NCBI RefSeq assembly: GCF_033954835.1
Contig: NZ_CP121471.1
Location: forward strand, 1,978,501 to 2,042,500
Origin: Thiorhodovibrio frisius
Lineage (GTDB): Bacteria > Pseudomonadota > Gammaproteobacteria > Chromatiales > Chromatiaceae
Length of the DNA stretch: 64,000 nt
Direction of reading: 5' to 3'
The translations under genes and the position numbers were made by a program. The notes under the pieces are model-generated. The model was given only the letters and a program-made list of their open reading frames with translations, did not search any database and was not told the DNA's origin. This document shows positions 3,119-11,270 of this stretch, piece after piece (the stretch's first letter is position 1; every line of letters begins with the position of its first letter).

Positions 3119-4234
3119 TCAGTGCTCGGTTCCCAAATAGCGGTCCAAGAGCCTCAGCCAATCGTTGGAGCGGATAATTTCAAGTAAGGCGACATTGGCG
3201 GATTCGCGCAACTCGCTATCGGGCGGCAGGGCAATGCCATAGTCCTGGCGGCGCAGAACCAAGGGCAAGACCTGTAGCTGTTGCGCGAATGCCTCCGCAA
3301 TTGCATAGCGCAAGATCGGGGCATCATGGACAACCGCATCCGCCTTGCCCTCAGCCATCTGCGTCAGGGCTGCGGGCAGGTCGCCGACGGTTCGATGACG
3401 GACGCCCTGTTCAGCCAGAAAGCTGTCGCTGGTGCTCCCGCTCAAGGCCAGAACGCGCTTGGAGCGCAGGTCATTGACGCTTTTTATCGAAGTGTCCAGC
3501 TCATTCACGGTCAAGGCTGTCGTGATGGCCGCAGTGAAGGTCGAGATCGCGATCAGGCCAGAAAACATCCAAACCATCCCGATGAGTCGCCCGAGCGGCG
3601 TCATCGGTGCCTTGTCGCCATAGCCAACCGTGGTCATGGTCACCGCAGACCACCAGAGCCCGGAGCCAATGCCGGACAGGGGCGCTCGACAAAATTGGTC
3701 GTTTTTTCGCCGCTCGGCCAGCCAGATCAGCACTCCGACAGCGACCAGGAGTGCGAGCAGCGCAGCAACCACGACCAAGAATCCAGGCGACATCAAGCGA
3801 GCAATCACCGCGAGCAGATTGCTGCTGCGATGCGGCACAGCGACCGCCAGTCCGGAGGTATGAAATGGATGCGAGAAGTCGAGATCCTGCTCGCGATCGC
3901 TGGTGATGGTCAGCGCTGCAACAGCCGCATCGACGCTACCTGTCGCCGTCGCATCGAGCATCTCGGTCAGCCCAAGCTCGGTGTAGTGGAAGTCGAAGCC
4001 GTTTTGCTCGGCGATCTGATTCCAGAGTTCGATGGCGATGCCGGACCATTGCCCATCGGCATCCTTGAATGCAAAGGGCGGTGCCTCGCGGGTCGCGATG
4101 GTCAGCGCGGCTAAAGCGACAGGGTCTGTCGCGCCCTCTTGCAGCGTTCCATCGCCTTCTGCTGACTGGGCGCCAACTTGAGCGGCCCAGCAAAGCATTG
4201 GCAACAGTAGCAGCCGATTCAAAACATATCGCAT
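3119..4234 (-). CDS. GluR0-like ligand-gated potassium channel
   Basis: Domain order is signal peptide (about residues 1-23), first half of a periplasmic solute-binding domain, a hydrophobic helix, a pore loop with the K+ selectivity sequence TTVGYGD, a second helix, then the second half of the binding domain. This S1-M1-P-M2-S2 plan is that of prokaryotic glutamate-receptor channels such as GluR0, in which amino-acid binding outside the inner membrane opens a K+ pore. I start it at 4234 because GGAGG lies five bases upstream and the signal peptide begins at once; an in-frame ATG at 4261 would add nine residues. The ligand cannot be named. A non-channel binding protein is unlikely given the exact K+ filter. 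Confidence 0.88.
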   Translation of the reverse strand: MRYVLNRLLLLPMLCWAAQVGAQSAEGDGTLQEGATDPVALAALTIATREAPPFAFKDADGQWSGIAIELWNQIAEQNGFDFHYTELGLTEMLDATATGSVDAAVAALTITSDREQDLDFSHPFHTSGLAVAVPHRSSNLLAVIARLMSPGFLVVVAALLALLVAVGVLIWLAERRKNDQFCRAPLSGIGSGLWWSAVTMTTVGYGDKAPMTPLGRLIGMVWMFSGLIAISTFTAAITTALTVNELDTSIKSVNDLRSKRVLALSGSTSDSFLAEQGVRHRTVGDLPAALTQMAEGKADAVVHDAPILRYAIAEAFAQQLQVLPLVLRRQDYGIALPPDSELRESANVALLEIIRSNDWLRLLDRYLGTEH

Positions 4235-4312
4235 CCGGGCCTCCGTAATATCATTGCCCATTGCCTATCGCCCATTCTTGCTCTGCGCAAAACAGCAGCT
4301 GCGAGACCTGAT

Positions 4313-5860
4313 CTATTCGATATCAACGCGGTCACGGCCTTCCCGCTTGGCGCGGTAGAGCGCGGCATCGGCACGCTTGAGCATGTCATCGAGGGTGTCC
4401 TGCGGCTGCCATGCGGTCAGGCCCTGGCTCAGGGTCACGGGCCGTCCGGGCGCGGACTCGAGCGCCGCGATCTCGCGCCTGAGCCGCTCGGCGAAGGCCC
4501 TCGCGCCACCTTGGCCGGCGCCGGGCAGCAGGATCACGAATTCCTCGCCGCCCCAGCGGGCGGCCAGGTCACCCTTGCGGCTTAAGTCTTTAAGAACGCT
4601 TGCCACCTCGCGCAACACGCGGTCGCCGGTTGCGTGGCCGCGGTTGTCGTTGATCCACTTGAAATGATCGAGATCGGCCAGGATCAACGTCATGGGCGTA
4701 GCCGTGCGTTCTCTTCTGGCCAGGGCGATCTCGGCGGCTTCCATAAAATGGCGGCGATTGGCCAGGCCGGTCAGCGTGTCGGTGATCGCGAGCTCGCGCA
4801 TGGTGGCGGCATCGCGGACATTGCGGATGTACTCCCGGGTGCCAAAGACGATGGACAGGCACAGGATGGCACCGCCAATCAAGTAAAGAAACAGCTGTTG
4901 CCGCCAGGCGCCGAGCGCGGTGCGGGTCTCCTCGCCAACCACCGCGATGAAGGGCAGACCGCGGATTTTGCGCAGGGCCCAGATCCTGTCGATGCCATCC
5001 ACCGGGGAGACCAGGCGATGAGTAACCAGCGCCTCGGAACCCGAGCGAGCCAGCGTATTGAGCTTTTCCTCGGCGACGCGCTGCCCGATCTGACTAGCGA
5101 TCAAGGGCTTGCGGGTGAGCAGGCGCGAGTTCAGGTCGAAGATGGCGATGACGTTATGCGGCTCCAGCTCGACCAGGTCCAGCCACTGCTGGAAGAATCC
5201 CAAATCAAGGCCCGCCAGCGCGAAGCCCTCCAGCTGTCCCGTTGCCGACAACAGCGGCATGGAGGCGGTCACGTTCATGGCGTTGGTGACCGAGGTGAAC
5301 ATGTTGCTGATCTTGAAGGCGTCAACTGGCTCGCTCTGGGCCAGGGTGCAGTATTCGCGCCCGCGTTCTTGCGCATCGAGCCCGATGTTGCCGCCGATGG
5401 ATGTGTGGGTGATGACACAATTGGCGTTCAGCATGCCGAGAAAGAGCAGGTTGGGCACGGAGGCGGCCTTGTCGATGATCAGCGCGGTCTTGCGCTCATG
5501 CAGACCCGCATTGTCGCTCGGGTAGACCAGCTCATCCGCGTCGAAGCGCTTGACGGTATCGCGCAGCACGTACTCGGTTAGGTCGAAGGATTTTGCGATC
5601 CATTCGGCGATCAGAAAGCCTTTGGCCGTGGCGCGCTCGGTGGCGGTGGCGATGGCCAACCGGTGGGAAGCGACGAGCTGCGTCGTGCCGGCGGCGGCGA
5701 TGGTGGCAATCATCACCACGCAGATCAGCCAGGCGTTGCGGGTACGCGCGCTGATCCGGCGTTTCGAATCGCTCTCGCCTTGATCGCGGCGGGCCCGTGC
5801 CGCCTGGTCGATGTCGACCGCCGCGGAGCGTGAATCAACGGTTTCGGTTGCAGAGCTCAT
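4313..5860 (-). CDS. dCache-type membrane diguanylate cyclase (GGDEF)
   Basis: A 515-residue protein with a transmembrane helix near residues 43-65, a periplasmic sensor of Cache type up to about 325, a second helix near 327-347 and a cytoplasmic GGDEF domain. The active loop RWGGEEF is intact and is preceded by RKGD five residues earlier, a complete product-inhibition site, so it should make c-di-GMP. There is no EAL. Its start overlaps the stop of the upstream ClC-SPOR gene by four bases, so the two are probably translationally coupled. The ligand of the sensor is unknown. Confidence 0.92.
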   Translation of the reverse strand: MSSATETVDSRSAAVDIDQAARARRDQGESDSKRRISARTRNAWLICVVMIATIAAAGTTQLVASHRLAIATATERATAKGFLIAEWIAKSFDLTEYVLRDTVKRFDADELVYPSDNAGLHERKTALIIDKAASVPNLLFLGMLNANCVITHTSIGGNIGLDAQERGREYCTLAQSEPVDAFKISNMFTSVTNAMNVTASMPLLSATGQLEGFALAGLDLGFFQQWLDLVELEPHNVIAIFDLNSRLLTRKPLIASQIGQRVAEEKLNTLARSGSEALVTHRLVSPVDGIDRIWALRKIRGLPFIAVVGEETRTALGAWRQQLFLYLIGGAILCLSIVFGTREYIRNVRDAATMRELAITDTLTGLANRRHFMEAAEIALARRERTATPMTLILADLDHFKWINDNRGHATGDRVLREVASVLKDLSRKGDLAARWGGEEFVILLPGAGQGGARAFAERLRREIAALESAPGRPVTLSQGLTAWQPQDTLDDMLKRADAALYRAKREGRDRVDIE

Positions 5861-8238
5861 ACAGCGGAAAGCCCTCGGTTGGTGCGGTCGATAACAAGGT
5901 GCGGTGGCAGCCGAACCGGGTTGGAAGTCCGTTTTGGTGGCGCCTGGATGGGCACGAGCCGCTCGCCGGTCTTCAGCGGGCGGATGATTGGATCGAGGCG
6001 CGTCAGGTCCGGCGGCAGTTCCCGCAGTGCTGCCTCGGCTCTTGCGAAATCTGCATAGGCGCCGATCAGCACGCTATGCCAGCGCCTAGGCTCGCCGTCT
6101 GACTCCAGTTGCAGTGCCCGGCCGACGAGGCCCGCGTCCTGCGCGAAGCGCGCGAGGCTGGCGGCGTCGCGGAAGCTTATCAGCTGGATGGTGAAGCGAG
6201 CGTCTTCAGGGATTGCATCAATGCGATTACTGGGCGCTTCTGTGGGCGCTTCACTGGGCACTTCTGTGGGCGCTTCACTGGGTGCTTCTGTGGGCGCTTC
6301 ACTGGGTGCTTCTGTCGCGGTCGCAGTGGTCGAATCCGCATCAGAGCCCGTGCTGGCATCCCTGACAGCATCCAGGTCTGTGTCAGTGTTGATCGGTCTT
6401 TCCGGCAATTCGTCTTCCTGCGGCGATTGATCTTCCCGTGCGACGGCAGTGCTGGGCAAGCGGGGGGACTCAGGTAACACCGTGGCCTCGGCCGCGGCTC
6501 CTTCGCCTAGCTCGGGCTTTGCTTCAGCCTCAGCTCTAGCCTCCAACTCCGTCACGGACTCTAACTCGGTCTCGGTCTCAGTCTCAGTCTCAGTCTCAGT
6601 CTCAGTCTCAGTCTCAGCCACAGACTCTAAGTCGCTCTCAATCTCAGACTCGGCCAAGGACTCCAACTCGCTCTCAGTCTCGGTCTTTACCTTGCTAACG
6701 ACACTGGTCGGCACCGGCTTTTCCATGTCCGCTGGCACAGTCACCGCAGCCGCCGACCGCGTCTTCGCCAGCGAGGCGGTCGGTGCCATGCCGGTCCCTT
6801 GCCAGGCTACGTCGATCCGCTCGATGGCGATGAAGGCGATCAGGATCATCGCCGCCGCAAAGATTCGCCGAATCGGCGCGCAGGGCGCCGGCTTGTTTTG
6901 GAGCGCGAGCAGCGAGCTGTATATCGGTCGCCCGCCGAGGCCTTCGGCGGTGAAGGTCGCGCTGAGGCAGGTGAGGATGATCGGCAGTGCCAGGGCTTGG
7001 GCACCTGTGAGCTCAATGACAAGAATGATGCCGGTGAGCGGTGCGCGAACGGTGGCGGCGAAGAGCGCCCCCATGGCGGCGACGGCGAAGACCTCGGGTT
7101 GCAGCGCGATTGCAGGCGCAGCAAAGGAGACCAGCACCGCAAAGGCGGCACCGCAGATGGTGCCGAGTGCCAGCATTGGCGCGAAGATGCCACCGGGTAA
7201 GCCGAGTCCGTAGCTGCCGACCGTGGTCAGCAAGCGCACGGCGAGCAATGCGAGCAGAAAGAAAAGCGCAGGCTGACCATGCAGCAGATTCTCGACCAGG
7301 GTCTCACCGCCACCCACGGTGGCTGGCGCAAACCAGATCAGCGCGCCGAGGAACAGCCCGGTCATGGCAGCAGCGGTGTAGGCTCCCGGCGTGCCCAGCG
7401 CTCGAAAAGCGGCCACCGAGCCCAGCAGCAAACGGTTGAACAGTCCGCCAAGGGCACCGATCAGGATGCCAAGGAGCAGGAACAATGGCAGCGAGCGCAG
7501 CGGTGCCATGTCCAGGTCCGGCATCGGCATGTCCGGCCCCTGACCGAGCATCCAACCGCTGACGATCACCGCCGCGCAGCAGGCCAGGATGACCGACTGG
7601 ATGGTTGCGAAGCGATAGACGAAATGCTCGCGCAGCTCCTCGGTGACGAAGACGATCGCAGCGAGCGGTGCGTTGAAGGCAGTGGCCAGCCCGGCTGCGG
7701 CGCCGGCTGCAATCAATGCGCGATTCGCGCCGGGCCGAGGTCCCAGACGCTCGCTCGCCATCTGACCGAGCGCCGCGCCCATGTGGATGGTCGGCCCCTC
7801 GCGGCCCAGCACCAGGCCCGAGCCTACGGCGAGGGTGCCGGCGACGAACTTGATGGGCAGCACGCGCTTCCAGTGCAGCTTGCGCGCGCTAGCGAGGATG
7901 GATTCGACCTCTTGCACGCCACTGCCGGCGGTTTCCGGGGCGAAACGGCGCACCAGCCACATGGCGCAGACCAGCACCAGAGCGCCGAGCAGCATCAGCA
8001 GCAGCCATCCGGGAACCGGTGCTGAGCCGAGCAGCTCGCGCAGCATGTCTCGGCTCGACGCCGCTTGATCGAGCAGGGCATGAAAGGCCCCGCCGATCAG
8101 TCCCGCGAATGCCCCAACCAAGGTGGCCGCGAGATAGAGTCGCCAGGGAAAGGTGATGGCCGGCATCGTCTCTTTGGTGTCGGTTGTGACTGTGGCGCGT
8201 GAAAACAGCGATGAGCGCGAAGAGCAGAAGCTCGACAT
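5857..8238 (-). CDS. ClC chloride/proton antiporter with C-terminal SPOR domain
   Basis: Residues 30-445 form a ClC transporter with GSGVQ (105-109), GREGP (145-149, gating glutamate E147), EE at 200-201 (the proton-glutamate position of ClC-ec1), GIFAP (350-354) and PIYSS with Y440. These residues predict a Cl-/H+ exchanger rather than a plain channel. The tail is unusual: an extra hydrophobic segment at about 457-475 preceded by RR, a long acidic low-complexity linker with a Thr-Glu repeat (542-557) and an EAPT/EAPS repeat (643-670), then a SPOR-like domain (about 681-755). SPOR domains bind denuded peptidoglycan, so the tail would have to be periplasmic, which the extra helix allows. An ATG at 8166 is an alternative start closer to usual ClC N-termini. 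Confidence 0.9.
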   Translation of the reverse strand: MSSFCSSRSSLFSRATVTTDTKETMPAITFPWRLYLAATLVGAFAGLIGGAFHALLDQAASSRDMLRELLGSAPVPGWLLLMLLGALVLVCAMWLVRRFAPETAGSGVQEVESILASARKLHWKRVLPIKFVAGTLAVGSGLVLGREGPTIHMGAALGQMASERLGPRPGANRALIAAGAAAGLATAFNAPLAAIVFVTEELREHFVYRFATIQSVILACCAAVIVSGWMLGQGPDMPMPDLDMAPLRSLPLFLLLGILIGALGGLFNRLLLGSVAAFRALGTPGAYTAAAMTGLFLGALIWFAPATVGGGETLVENLLHGQPALFFLLALLAVRLLTTVGSYGLGLPGGIFAPMLALGTICGAAFAVLVSFAAPAIALQPEVFAVAAMGALFAATVRAPLTGIILVIELTGAQALALPIILTCLSATFTAEGLGGRPIYSSLLALQNKPAPCAPIRRIFAAAMILIAFIAIERIDVAWQGTGMAPTASLAKTRSAAAVTVPADMEKPVPTSVVSKVKTETESELESLAESEIESDLESVAETETETETETETETETELESVTELEARAEAEAKPELGEGAAAEATVLPESPRLPSTAVAREDQSPQEDELPERPINTDTDLDAVRDASTGSDADSTTATATEAPSEAPTEAPSEAPTEVPSEAPTEAPSNRIDAIPEDARFTIQLISFRDAASLARFAQDAGLVGRALQLESDGEPRRWHSVLIGAYADFARAEAALRELPPDLTRLDPIIRPLKTGERLVPIQAPPKRTSNPVRLPPHLVIDRTNRGLSAV
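6229..6312. repeat. 12-bp coding tandem repeat in the ClC-SPOR linker
   Basis: Seven imperfect 12-bp units encode alternating EAPT and EAPS (one EVPS) in the minus-strand ClC-SPOR gene. The unit length is a multiple of three, so copy-number change would alter linker length without a frameshift. Confidence 0.85.
6565..6618. repeat. Hexanucleotide microsatellite (CTCAGT/CTCGGT), nine units
   Basis: Nine consecutive six-base units, seven of the CTCAG type and two CTCGGT, encode the Thr-Glu run at residues 542-557 of the ClC-SPOR protein on the minus strand. Degenerate copies continue on both sides. Slippage here would add or remove two residues per unit. Confidence 0.9.
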
Positions 8239-8325: not shown

Positions 8326-9165
8326 ATGAGCACAGATCACACAATTCTAAAAGTTTTTGGCAGCCGCCTCGCAGGCGCAGTATTACTGGTCCTGCTGGTA
8401 GGTATCGTGGCGCCTCTGGGCAGCGGCAGCACTGCGTTTGCTCAATCGGCACCCGCGCCGGTGCAGTCTCCTGTTACCGAGTCGGTGAAGCACCACAGTA
8501 GCAGCGAACATAAGATTGATGCGCGAGCGCACCGAGTCGCTAAGGCAATTGCCAGCGACATCGAGCGCGTCGAGCCCTATCTGGAGCGCTATGGTTATTG
8601 GGCTGTGTTTGCAGCAGTTGGGGTCGAGGGCATCGGTATCCCGGCGCCGGGGCAAACTCTGCTGGAGGCTGGCGCCCTGGTGGCAGCGATTCCAGACAGC
8701 AAGCTCAACATCTTCGTGTTGCTTCTTGTCACCATCCTGGCAACAGCGCTCGGGCAGACGATCGGCTATCTGATTGGTCGCTCCGGCGGTCGCGCTGTGC
8801 TCAATCGACTGCCGATTCCAGCACGCAGCCTTGAGAACATCGAGCGCGGATTCAACCGCTATGGCGGATGGCTGGTGTTCTTCGGTCGCTTTGTCGATGG
8901 CCCGCGTCAGTTCATTGGGCTCTTTTCAGGCGTACTCGCGATGCACTGGGGCCGTTTTATGCTCCTCAATATCGGTGGAGCAATCGTTTGGGCGAGTTTC
9001 TGGGCGCTCGGCATCTATTATCTCGATCTCCATTTCGATGCCCTGGTCACGGCCTTACGTCATGTCAACCCCTGGGTCGCGGGTCTCACGGTGATCGGCA
9101 TTGTCGGCCTGCTGATTTTTGTGTTGATTACCATTATCCGACGGCGGAGCCAGATTAGCTCCTAA
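8326..9165 (+). CDS. DedA family membrane protein
   Basis: A hydrophobic protein with an N-terminal signal-like helix, then the DedA (SNARE-associated) core: the GVEGIGIPAPGQ motif, a GQTIGYLIGR helix, FFGRFVDGPRQ and a closing helix group. DedA proteins are implicated in recycling undecaprenyl phosphate or other lipids across the inner membrane. The ATG at 8326 is chosen, but it has no clear ribosome binding site, whereas an in-frame TTG at 8308 sits about four bases after GGAGG and may be the true start. The first 80 or so residues, before the DedA core, are longer than in typical members. Confidence 0.87.
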   Translation: MSTDHTILKVFGSRLAGAVLLVLLVGIVAPLGSGSTAFAQSAPAPVQSPVTESVKHHSSSEHKIDARAHRVAKAIASDIERVEPYLERYGYWAVFAAVGVEGIGIPAPGQTLLEAGALVAAIPDSKLNIFVLLLVTILATALGQTIGYLIGRSGGRAVLNRLPIPARSLENIERGFNRYGGWLVFFGRFVDGPRQFIGLFSGVLAMHWGRFMLLNIGGAIVWASFWALGIYYLDLHFDALVTALRHVNPWVAGLTVIGIVGLLIFVLITIIRRRSQISS

Positions 9166-9224: not shown

Positions 9225-11270
9225 TTAGGGTGCTTTTTGTTCGGTAAAGCGCTCATTCAGCGGCCGTGGCCGTCCGAGCAGGTAGCCCTGCCCGTAGTCG
9301 ATGCCGATCTTGCGCAGCGCGGCGAGCTGCTCTTCGTTCTCGACGAACTCGGCGATGGTGCTCTGCTTGCGCAGCCGGGCGATCTGGTGGATGTAACTGA
9401 CGGTTTCGTAGTCGACCGGGTCGCTCAGCATATCGCGGATGAAGCTGCCGTCGATTTTGATGCGATCAAAGGGCAGAGATTTCAGATATTCGAAGGACGA
9501 CAGCCCGGTGCCAAAGTCATCGAGCGCGACCTGCACGCCGAGGGTGCGGCAGCGGGCGATAAAATCCGACGCCTGCGGGAGGTTGCCGACCGCCGAGGTC
9601 TCGGTGACTTCTACCACCAGTTTGTGCCAGGGAAAATCCCGTCGCGCTAGGGTGTCTCCGAACCAGGCCTGGAAGTCCGGATGCGTCAATGTGCTGCCGG
9701 AGAGGTTAATGCTCGCGAACCCGAGCTCGGCAAGATGTTCGGGGTTTTCCTCCATGGCGGCGAAAAAGGCAGCAAAGACATGCTGGTCGATGGCGCTCAT
9801 GAGCTGATAGCGCTCTGCCGCCGGCAAGAAGAGACCGGGGGACAAGAGCTCGCCGTCACCAGTGCGCAGGCGTAGCAAGATTTCGTAGTTGTTTATCGAT
9901 GATGCGCTGTCATCGGCGAGTGGAATGATGGGCTGTGCGAACAGCTCGAAGCGGGCCGGCCCTTGCCTTAGAGCTTCCTTGATGGCGCTAGCGGCGAGTC
10001 GTTCGGCGCTCTCGCGCTGCTGGCGTTCGGCATCCGCGCGATGGCAATGCAGCTGCTGGTGTCCGCGCAGTTGTGCTTGTTTCAGCGCCGAGTTGGCGGC
10101 GGCGATCAGATCGTCGCGGTTGTATTCAAAGGGTCGGAAAGCGACCAGCCCCGCGCTTGCCGTGACATCGAAAGCCGATTGCTCCCAGCGAAAGCGCAGC
10201 TCGCCGATGCGCTCGAGCAGCATCCGGGTTTGCGCGCGCGCCTGCTCCTCGTCACAGTCTGGAAGCAGCGCGAAGAATTCATCCCCGCCGATGCGCGCCA
10301 AATCTGCGGGCGCCGGCCAGTGATCGCGACACAGCTGCGCAACCTGCTGCAGCAGATGATCGCCCGCGAGCTGGCCAGCGCTGTCGTTGACCAGTTTGAA
10401 AAGATCGAGATCCAGCTCTACCAGAACCTGCGTGGAGTTGGGGCCGTCGTTCTCGCTGTCGCTGTCGCTCCCATAGCGGTCACCGTCGAGCGCCCGCTCG
10501 AGAGCGACATAAAGGCCGTGACGGTTGAGGAGTCCGGTCAGGGTGTCATGATGGCCGAGATAGCGCAGCTCCTCGGTCGCGCGCACAATCTGATCGATCA
10601 TGGCGTTATATCCGGCATAGAGTTCGCCAACTTCGTTGCGGGCCCGGGTTTGCACCAGGGTGAAGCGGTTGGCGCGCGGGTCGTTGGCGCGCATGACCCG
10701 CGCCAGCGCGCTGAAAGGTCGGGTGTAGAGGCCGCCGATCCCGAAGGCGAGCGCCAGGCCGATCAGGAGCGCGAGCGAGTAAAGCACCAGCAGTGACAGG
10801 ACGCGCTCTTTGAGACCTGTGTGATAACGACCGAGATCGAGCGCATAGCAGCCGGTGCCGAAAGTGCCGGCGCCGGCCTGGAGCGGCTCGCACAGCGACA
10901 GATGGGTGGCGCTGAGCTCAGGAGTCGGCAAGGCGGCTGGCTTTGCGGGCAGGGCGAAGGTCGCGCCTGGGCGCTGGTAGCGATAGACGGGCTGCGCTTC
11001 GGTGCCGAAGAGCACCAGGGCATCGAGAGCCGCAAAGCCGGCGAGGCGAAAGGACAGCTCGGCTTGGCGGTCGATTGATGGCTCGATCACCGCGCGGATC
11101 AGATCTTGGCTCAACGCGCGGTGCAGTGTGGCCGCCTGTTCGAGTGCCATCTCACGACGGTCGCGGACATCGAGCCAGAAGGTCAGCAACAGCACGAGCA
11201 GCGCGACCAGCGTAAGCAGTGCGCCGACCAGCACGATAAGCTGGGTGCGAATGCGCAGCTTTTCCCACAT
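9225..11270 (-). CDS. Membrane GGDEF-EAL protein with periplasmic sensor and HAMP-like region
   Basis: A 681-residue protein. Helices near residues 11-33 and 156-178 enclose a short periplasmic sensor; a HAMP-like linker, GGDEF (ARIGGDEF) and EAL domains follow. The GGDEF loop is intact but the inhibitory RxxD site is absent (PAPAD occupies it). In EAL the signature reads EILLRL rather than EALLRW, while DDFGTGLSS, KIDGSF, AEFVE and GQGY are kept, so phosphodiesterase activity remains plausible. The gene lies just downstream of the rhodanese gene on the same strand, about 45 bases away. Confidence 0.9.
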   Translation of the reverse strand: MWEKLRIRTQLIVLVGALLTLVALLVLLLTFWLDVRDRREMALEQAATLHRALSQDLIRAVIEPSIDRQAELSFRLAGFAALDALVLFGTEAQPVYRYQRPGATFALPAKPAALPTPELSATHLSLCEPLQAGAGTFGTGCYALDLGRYHTGLKERVLSLLVLYSLALLIGLALAFGIGGLYTRPFSALARVMRANDPRANRFTLVQTRARNEVGELYAGYNAMIDQIVRATEELRYLGHHDTLTGLLNRHGLYVALERALDGDRYGSDSDSENDGPNSTQVLVELDLDLFKLVNDSAGQLAGDHLLQQVAQLCRDHWPAPADLARIGGDEFFALLPDCDEEQARAQTRMLLERIGELRFRWEQSAFDVTASAGLVAFRPFEYNRDDLIAAANSALKQAQLRGHQQLHCHRADAERQQRESAERLAASAIKEALRQGPARFELFAQPIIPLADDSASSINNYEILLRLRTGDGELLSPGLFLPAAERYQLMSAIDQHVFAAFFAAMEENPEHLAELGFASINLSGSTLTHPDFQAWFGDTLARRDFPWHKLVVEVTETSAVGNLPQASDFIARCRTLGVQVALDDFGTGLSSFEYLKSLPFDRIKIDGSFIRDMLSDPVDYETVSYIHQIARLRKQSTIAEFVENEEQLAALRKIGIDYGQGYLLGRPRPLNERFTEQKAP

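Follow-up and report, generated by a model that had tools for sequence, protein, structure and literature searches.

A ClcA-type ClC protein with a C-terminal SPOR domain in Thiorhodovibrio frisius and related Chromatiaceae

Background

ClC proteins are dimers, and in ClC-ec1 the C-terminus is cytoplasmic and lies shortly after the core. In the CBS-tailed ClCs a C-terminal part is appended to the core. SPOR-domain proteins of the DamX, FtsN and DedD type are single-pass proteins in which a linker joins the helix to a C-terminal SPOR domain. According to PMC6895207, the known SPOR target is denuded glycan, which is enriched at the septum, and the known SPOR proteins are said to have roles in division or morphogenesis. 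In the description of the four E. coli SPOR proteins in PMC7642682 none has a transporter part, unlike the protein considered here.

We analyzed a gene from a 64,000-nucleotide stretch of the Thiorhodovibrio frisius genome (the window) in which a ClC core and a SPOR domain are encoded in one frame. A sequence-only reading of this DNA had known of no described ClC of this type, and our literature search, which covered open-licence papers, likewise found no ClC with a SPOR domain. The explanation we favor, and consider rather probable, is that the fusion protein works as a Cl-/H+ antiporter and is held to the peptidoglycan, most probably that of the septum. Nature would then provide, in a SPOR domain on a complete ion antiporter, an example of a transporter that is fixed to the wall or directed to the septum, and the fusion gives a direct route to asking whether proton/chloride flux is spatially organized during bacterial division.

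The fused gene and its parts

The gene and the features recognized within it are as follows.

5857..8238, minus strand: ClC-helix-linker-SPOR gene, whole frame, 793 aa
6901..8145, minus strand: ClC core, ClcA type, residues 32-446; catalytic positions present
6802..6876, minus strand: hydrophobic helix added after the core, residues 455-479; its central stretch is IFAAAMILIAFIAI, with RR before it
6211..6801, minus strand: flexible acidic linker, Pro/Ala/Ser/Thr-rich, residues 480-676
6565..6617, no strand given: 8.8 tandem copies of a hexanucleotide within the linker; this stretch is shorter in the same-genus copy
6229..6315, no strand given: second tandem array within the linker, with a 12/24-base unit; again shorter in the same-genus copy
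5980..6201, minus strand: SPOR domain, residues 680-753

The sequence-only reading had assigned the gene to positions 5857-8238. The span is indeed a single open frame with no internal stops, but the true start is likely M25 (ATG at nucleotide 8166, giving a protein of 769 aa), because the first start codon in the frame of the same-genus copy sits at the M25 position. That reading had also allowed for a frameshift separating the tail from the ClC gene. No split was found, and since the fused frame recurs in 17 genomes, a tail that is a separate gene or a frameshift product is ruled out. An artefact of any kind, whether frameshift, misassembly or a chance low-complexity match, has a negligible probability; the low complexity of the linker is the sole point in its favor, against which the identical frame and order of parts are found in those 17 genomes, and the SPOR domain lies outside the tandem repeats and has a SPOR-like predicted fold, which disposes of a chance match for that domain.

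The ClC core

The window protein matches PF00654 with 313.5 bits over residues 89-431 (cut-off 24.8) and the NCBIfam ClcA equivalog with 462.7 bits (cut-off 350), and its core matches the Salmonella ClC at 6e-83. Residues S106, E112, K130, E147, E201, F352 and Y440 are kept in 18/18 orthologs, so that the intact catalytic positions reported from the sequence alone are borne out. These include the outer gate (E147), the inner proton glutamate (E201) and the chloride-coordinating pair S106 and Y440; equivalence to ClC-ec1 was drawn through the alignment with the Salmonella ClC and the ClC-ec1 residue numbering. In its core, in passing the ClcA equivalog cut-off and in its gate, proton and chloride residues, the protein thus resembles ClcA and ClC-ec1. 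Unlike ClC-ec1, which ends soon after the core, it has about 345 more residues, comprising the helix, the linker and the SPOR domain. We had considered GSGVQ, in place of GSGIP, as an unusual selectivity motif; it was dropped as a peculiarity because it is the commonest form in other ClcA homologs as well (47 of the 67 frames where the motif was found).

The sequence-only reading had set the tail against the CBS domains that ClC tails normally carry. This proved to be a poor comparison for the ClcA branch, because the 65 other ClcA homologs (160 relatives were ranked, and these are the remainder of the top 80) stop 3-43 residues past the ClC core. Tails of about 140-150 aa, which are presumably CBS, occur in many ClC paralogs of the family, and no match to a CBS domain was found in the window protein or in the 18 orthologs. 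The fusion is like the CBS-tailed ClCs in having a C-terminal part appended to the core, but differs from them in that a further hydrophobic helix precedes the appended domain, which belongs to a type that binds peptidoglycan.

Distribution and origin of the fusion

The arrangement of ClC, helix, linker and SPOR, in this order, is present in 17 of the 18 close orthologs, window included, and in 0 of the 65 other ClcA homologs; relatives of the same architecture, proposed as a check by the sequence-only reading, thus exist. Given this distribution, the ClC-SPOR join is not a chance fusion. The orthologs form one group in the tree (SH-aLRT 97), and those records that carry names are from Chromatiaceae in all but one case. 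The ClC and SPOR parts have diverged in step, co-inherited in one gene. The helix-linker-SPOR tail was probably acquired by clcA in a single event, in an ancestor of this group of purple sulfur bacteria. We ran the SPOR profile of the fusion on a sample of 369 genomes of the class, of which 200 matched at E 1e-6. Among the 29 loci examined of the 30 best (L125-L154, L126 being left out by a position filter), a ClC was found only at the window's own locus; this survey covers the best matches similar to the window SPOR, and an unrelated ClC-SPOR fusion would escape it.

One ortholog, L056, has lost the SPOR domain and retained the ClC. Free SPOR proteins also occur in Chromatiaceae (L041 and L042), with a SPOR domain 48% identical to that of the fusion; L042 appears by eye to be single-pass. 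Such proteins could suggest that the ClC is mainly the membrane anchor of a division protein of the single-pass SPOR type, or that the tail is cleaved and acts alone. We think this very improbable, as the ClC is the most conserved part of the fusion protein among the orthologs (dN/dS of 0.046), keeps its catalytic residues in 18/18, and has outlasted the SPOR domain in L056.

The added helix, the linker and the SPOR domain

From the sequence alone, the ClC core had been proposed to lead through an extra helix and an acidic linker full of repeats into a SPOR-like domain, and each of these parts was recovered. The best 17-residue Kyte-Doolittle mean is 2.31 in the window protein and ranges from 1.84 to 2.50 over the 18 orthologs, all of which conserve the hydrophobic segment and have an arginine on its N-side. 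The linker that follows is 198 aa long in the window protein, has a net charge of -37 and contains tandem repeats with periods of 6 and 12/24. Its length varies freely among the orthologs, from 47 to 239 aa, a five-fold spread, and it is net negative in 15/17. In the full-length model (mean pLDDT 58; alignment of 18 rows), residues 455-479 are a helix of low confidence, the linker has pLDDT <50 almost throughout, and superposition of the ClC part on ClC-ec1 gives no better than about 19 A; the model was therefore given up as a guide to topology.

PF05036 matches residues 680-753 with 30.5 bits in the protein scan (cut-off 21), the whole-genome scan gave 35.6 bits, and the domain is matched at E <= 0.001 in 17/18 orthologs. 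The SPOR model (pLDDT 87) has the beta-alpha-beta-beta-alpha-beta order of the RNP-like fold and a last strand, and in structure comparison SPOR chains lead with moderate scores. Among solved SPOR domains, that of E. coli DamX comes closest in both sequence and fold, and DamX likewise has a helix, a long linker and a SPOR domain at its C-terminus; unlike DamX, the fusion has a polytopic exchanger as its N-terminal part and no AAA domain by Pfam, and the position of W416 is I/M/L in the fusion orthologs. The SPOR-like fold is shared with FtsN, DedD and RlpA, FtsN not being among the structural matches listed, which says nothing about its fold. FtsN W283, like the conserved glutamine, lines up with the fusion SPOR, where Q685, the glycan-contacting glutamine on strand 1, is kept in 17/17. 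As to a basic patch at the NAM site, R753 (17/17) faces DamX K418, and the position of FtsN R285 is not basic. The localization surface is kept only in part. The tail is built in the way typical of single-pass SPOR proteins of the DamX, FtsN and DedD type, with a helix putatively crossing the membrane, a predicted disordered linker and a C-terminal SPOR domain, but the protein differs from that type in having a complete ClC core ahead of the helix.

The extra helix argues for one more membrane crossing and a periplasmic SPOR domain, a placement we favor because arginines precede the helix and the glycan site of the SPOR is conserved. The hydrophobic segment might instead be interfacial or re-entrant, leaving the SPOR domain in the cytoplasm with some other purpose. 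Its apolar core is 14-15 residues long and its position is not fixed by the low-confidence model, but such an arrangement is decidedly unlikely in view of the hydrophobicity and N-side arginine in 18/18 orthologs, the mostly net negative linker, and the retention of glycan-site residues whose ligand lies outside the cytoplasm.

Proposed mechanism

We infer the membrane crossing, wall binding and septal location of the fusion protein from sequence features, and the steps would be these. From a ClcA-type 2Cl-/H+ antiporter core whose C-terminus is cytoplasmic, as in ClC-ec1, the extra helix would recross the membrane once to the periplasmic side, and the linker of 47-239 aa would span to the peptidoglycan. 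There the SPOR domain would bind peptide-free glycan, the product of amidases at the division septum; because ClC proteins are dimeric, each unit would present two SPOR domains. In this way the antiporter would gather at the septum as it closes, or stay aligned with the wall, and Cl-/H+ exchange, with its effects on pH and charge balance, would occur at the sites of wall cutting and building. A bolder possibility, less likely than not, is a divisome-associated exchanger: by binding denuded glycan the SPOR domain would bring the antiporter to the constricting septum, and might also gate it, coupling local proton and chloride flux to wall remodeling and, where a DedA gene adjoins, to lipid-carrier recycling.

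A plainer role is unlikely, if less so than a tail that fails to cross the membrane: the SPOR domain may serve as a cell-wide wall tether, or for spacing or oligomer stability, with no septal role, the ClcA performing ordinary acid and chloride housekeeping. The partly kept localization surface, the five-fold variation in linker length and the tolerated loss of the SPOR in L056 would suit such a tether, but Q685 is invariant (17/17), and the known target is septum-enriched and SPOR proteins are described as acting in division or morphogenesis (PMC6895207).

Neighboring genes

Two genes flank the fusion gene in the window.

4313..5860, minus strand: dCache-like sensor and GGDEF (diguanylate cyclase) gene; its start overlaps the stop of the fusion gene
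8326..9165, plus strand: DedA/VTT family membrane protein gene, divergent neighbor

Among the loci compared, the GGDEF gene adjoins the fusion gene only in the window and in the same-genus genome, and hence probably does not belong to a conserved unit. A conserved operon was rejected, with GGDEF in two genomes, DedA in one sub-branch and the other neighbors examined differing. For the DedA family, a role in recycling the lipid carrier of the wall has been proposed, and dependence on the proton gradient is suspected. A DedA homolog adjoins the fusion gene in 7 of the 18 distinct loci, some of which have short flanks (3.3 kb in L058) that a DedA gene could lie beyond, and all seven, L048 among them, belong to one sub-branch. 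There its adjacency fits an envelope role of the fusion protein.

The ClC-SPOR fusion gene

5857..8238, minus strand: ClC, added tail helix (residues 455-479), acidic linker, SPOR

All 793 codons of this frame are open, and a frameshift check placed the tail in the same open frame as the ClC. The protein likely starts at M25, since that is where the frame first has a start codon in the same-genus copy (genome G002). The N-terminal part is a ClcA-type ClC (PF00654, 313.5 bits; ClcA equivalog, 462.7 bits, cut-off 350), and its nearest solved chain is the Salmonella ClC (6e-83). The C-terminal SPOR domain proposed in the sequence-only reading was borne out by a family match at residues 680-753 (30.5 bits, cut-off 21); in a whole-genome scan the same domain scored 35.6 bits, one of six SPOR matches there.

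Single-pass SPOR proteins likewise carry a helix-linker-SPOR module like that of the ClC-SPOR tail, and the SPOR domains of free-standing family proteins (loci L041 and L042) are 48% identical to that of the tail. By eye, the L042 protein (3980-5320, minus strand) looks single-pass, with one hydrophobic stretch plus a linker and a possible coiled coil. In L006 (C1:4037737-4037952), another SPOR protein of the window's own genome, a long Pro-Glu repeat is accompanied by what looks to the eye like a single hydrophobic segment.

The same reading knew of no described ClC of this type, and we found no paper in open-licence PMC that pairs SPOR with chloride channel, CLC antiporter or ClcA, or that treats ClC tails. 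The two domains are each known; their combination and its implied place are undescribed in the open-licence PMC literature searched.

Distribution among relatives

In the 92 genomes searched as relatives, with the window's own (G000) among them, the fusion occurs in 5: G000, G002, G025, G036 and G017. A scan of named genomes found 160 relatives; among the best 80 of these are 15 close orthologues. Fourteen come from records that bear the name of Chromatiaceae or one of its genera (Thiocapsa, Halochromatium, Lamprobacter, Lamprocystis, Thiodictyon, unclassified bins), and the record of the other is titled only Gammaproteobacteria. Loci L055 and L057 of the scan are those of G036 and G017; with each genome counted once, 18 orthologues were read, namely those of the window, G002 and G025 and the 15 from the scan. 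The architecture that the earlier reading had proposed to look for in relatives, ClC with tail helix and SPOR, is present in 17 of the 18, window included (Pfam: ClC 18/18, SPOR 17/18). The remaining 65 of the best 80 are ClcA homologues of about 40-51% identity, with tails of 3-43 residues (19-residue window mean at most 0.79 where one fits) and SPOR by profile in none.

Across the family, a close orthologue (>390 bits) was found in 19 of 210 genomes and 5 of 61 genera. Eighteen of these are inferred to be the set read here; the 19th, in G164 (681-aa frame), lies outside the tail counts. No close orthologue is present in G001, a genome of the same genus (best match 2.7e-31). In genome G163, a partial second ClC match (C57:186758-187207, 69% over residues 27-176, 313-aa frame) shares a contig with a full one. 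The window's own genome has a second ClcA-like frame of just 292 aa (L044, C1:1736284-1736997), which may be a broken paralogue; in G002 a frame of similar identity has 467 aa.

Topology and a possible wall tether

The C-terminal end of ClC-ec1 lies on the cytoplasmic side. In all 18 orthologues the tail segment is hydrophobic (17-residue means 1.84-2.50) and preceded by an arginine. The linkers of the 17 fusions, 47 to 239 residues long, lack cysteine, are rich in Pro, Ala, Ser and Thr, and are net negative in 15. The hydrophobic segment, the arginine before it, the mostly acidic linker and the inside end of ClC-ec1 together favour a SPOR domain that lies outside, after one more predicted membrane crossing. 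The segment has an apolar core of just 14-15 residues, and the full-length predicted model is too poor to settle the side on which SPOR lies; we consider a cytoplasmic tail quite improbable.

The most economical reading, and probably the correct one, is that a functional ClC exchanger acquired the helix-linker-SPOR module through a single fusion and that the SPOR tail would tether it to the wall; the target of the tail would be denuded glycan, and hence its place the septum. A SPOR tail acting as a tether with no septal role seems unlikely to us; a passage of PMC6895207 describes all known SPOR proteins as acting in division or morphogenesis.

Descent and divergence

In a tree of 45 ClC cores (the 18 orthologues, 23 of the 65 homologues and 4 family-genome ClCs), all 18 orthologues fall on one side of a single branch (SH-aLRT 97; quick method, root not inferred). 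SPOR state changes twice on this tree, which we read as one putative gain and one loss. The ortholog lacking SPOR, in Halochromatium salexigens (L056, 5863-7515), is a 551-aa frame that keeps the ClC and tail helix and ends soon after the helix, before linker and SPOR; no SPOR frame was found by profile in its locus (frames of at least 150 aa). ClC and SPOR distances among the 17 fusions correlate (r 0.887; 0 of 2000 permutations as high), and thus the two parts have been passed on together.

Averaged over 136 pairs, pairwise identity reaches 0.77 in ClC, 0.54 in the helix region and 0.53 in SPOR, and falls to 0.24 in the linker. Between the window and G002, dN/dS, from few substitutions, is 0.046 for ClC, 0.39 for the linker and 0.31 for SPOR. 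The G002 linker is shorter by three gaps, two of them within tandem arrays. In-frame arrays in the window's linker (6565-6617 and 6229-6315; units of 6 and 12/24) differ in length between near genomes, with the frame intact.

Gene neighbourhood

4313..5860, minus strand: sensor and diguanylate cyclase (GGDEF), the next gene, overlapping the fusion stop codon
9225..11270, minus strand: GGDEF and EAL
3119..4261, minus strand: solute-binding domain and ion-channel pore (SBP_bac_3, Lig_chan, Ion_trans_2)

The sensor-diguanylate cyclase gene adjoins the fusion only in the window and G002; at the Thiocapsa marina locus (L045), the gene that overlaps the fusion end instead encodes a histidine-kinase ATPase domain. 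A DedA/VTT gene adjoins the fusion in 7 of the 18 loci, divergent in the window and G002 and upstream in the same direction in fusion loci L045-L049. A passage of PMC9876793 presents DedA proteins as candidates for recycling the wall lipid carrier and as suspected of relying on the proton gradient. A link of ClC-SPOR to this recycling is only hinted at, because the window DedA scores 52 against NCBI UptA, far below the cut-off of 250.

The two cyclic-di-GMP genes, 4313..5860 and 9225..11270, flank the ClC-SPOR and DedA pair. The product of 3119..4261, two genes after ClC-SPOR, resembles a prokaryotic glutamate-receptor-type channel.
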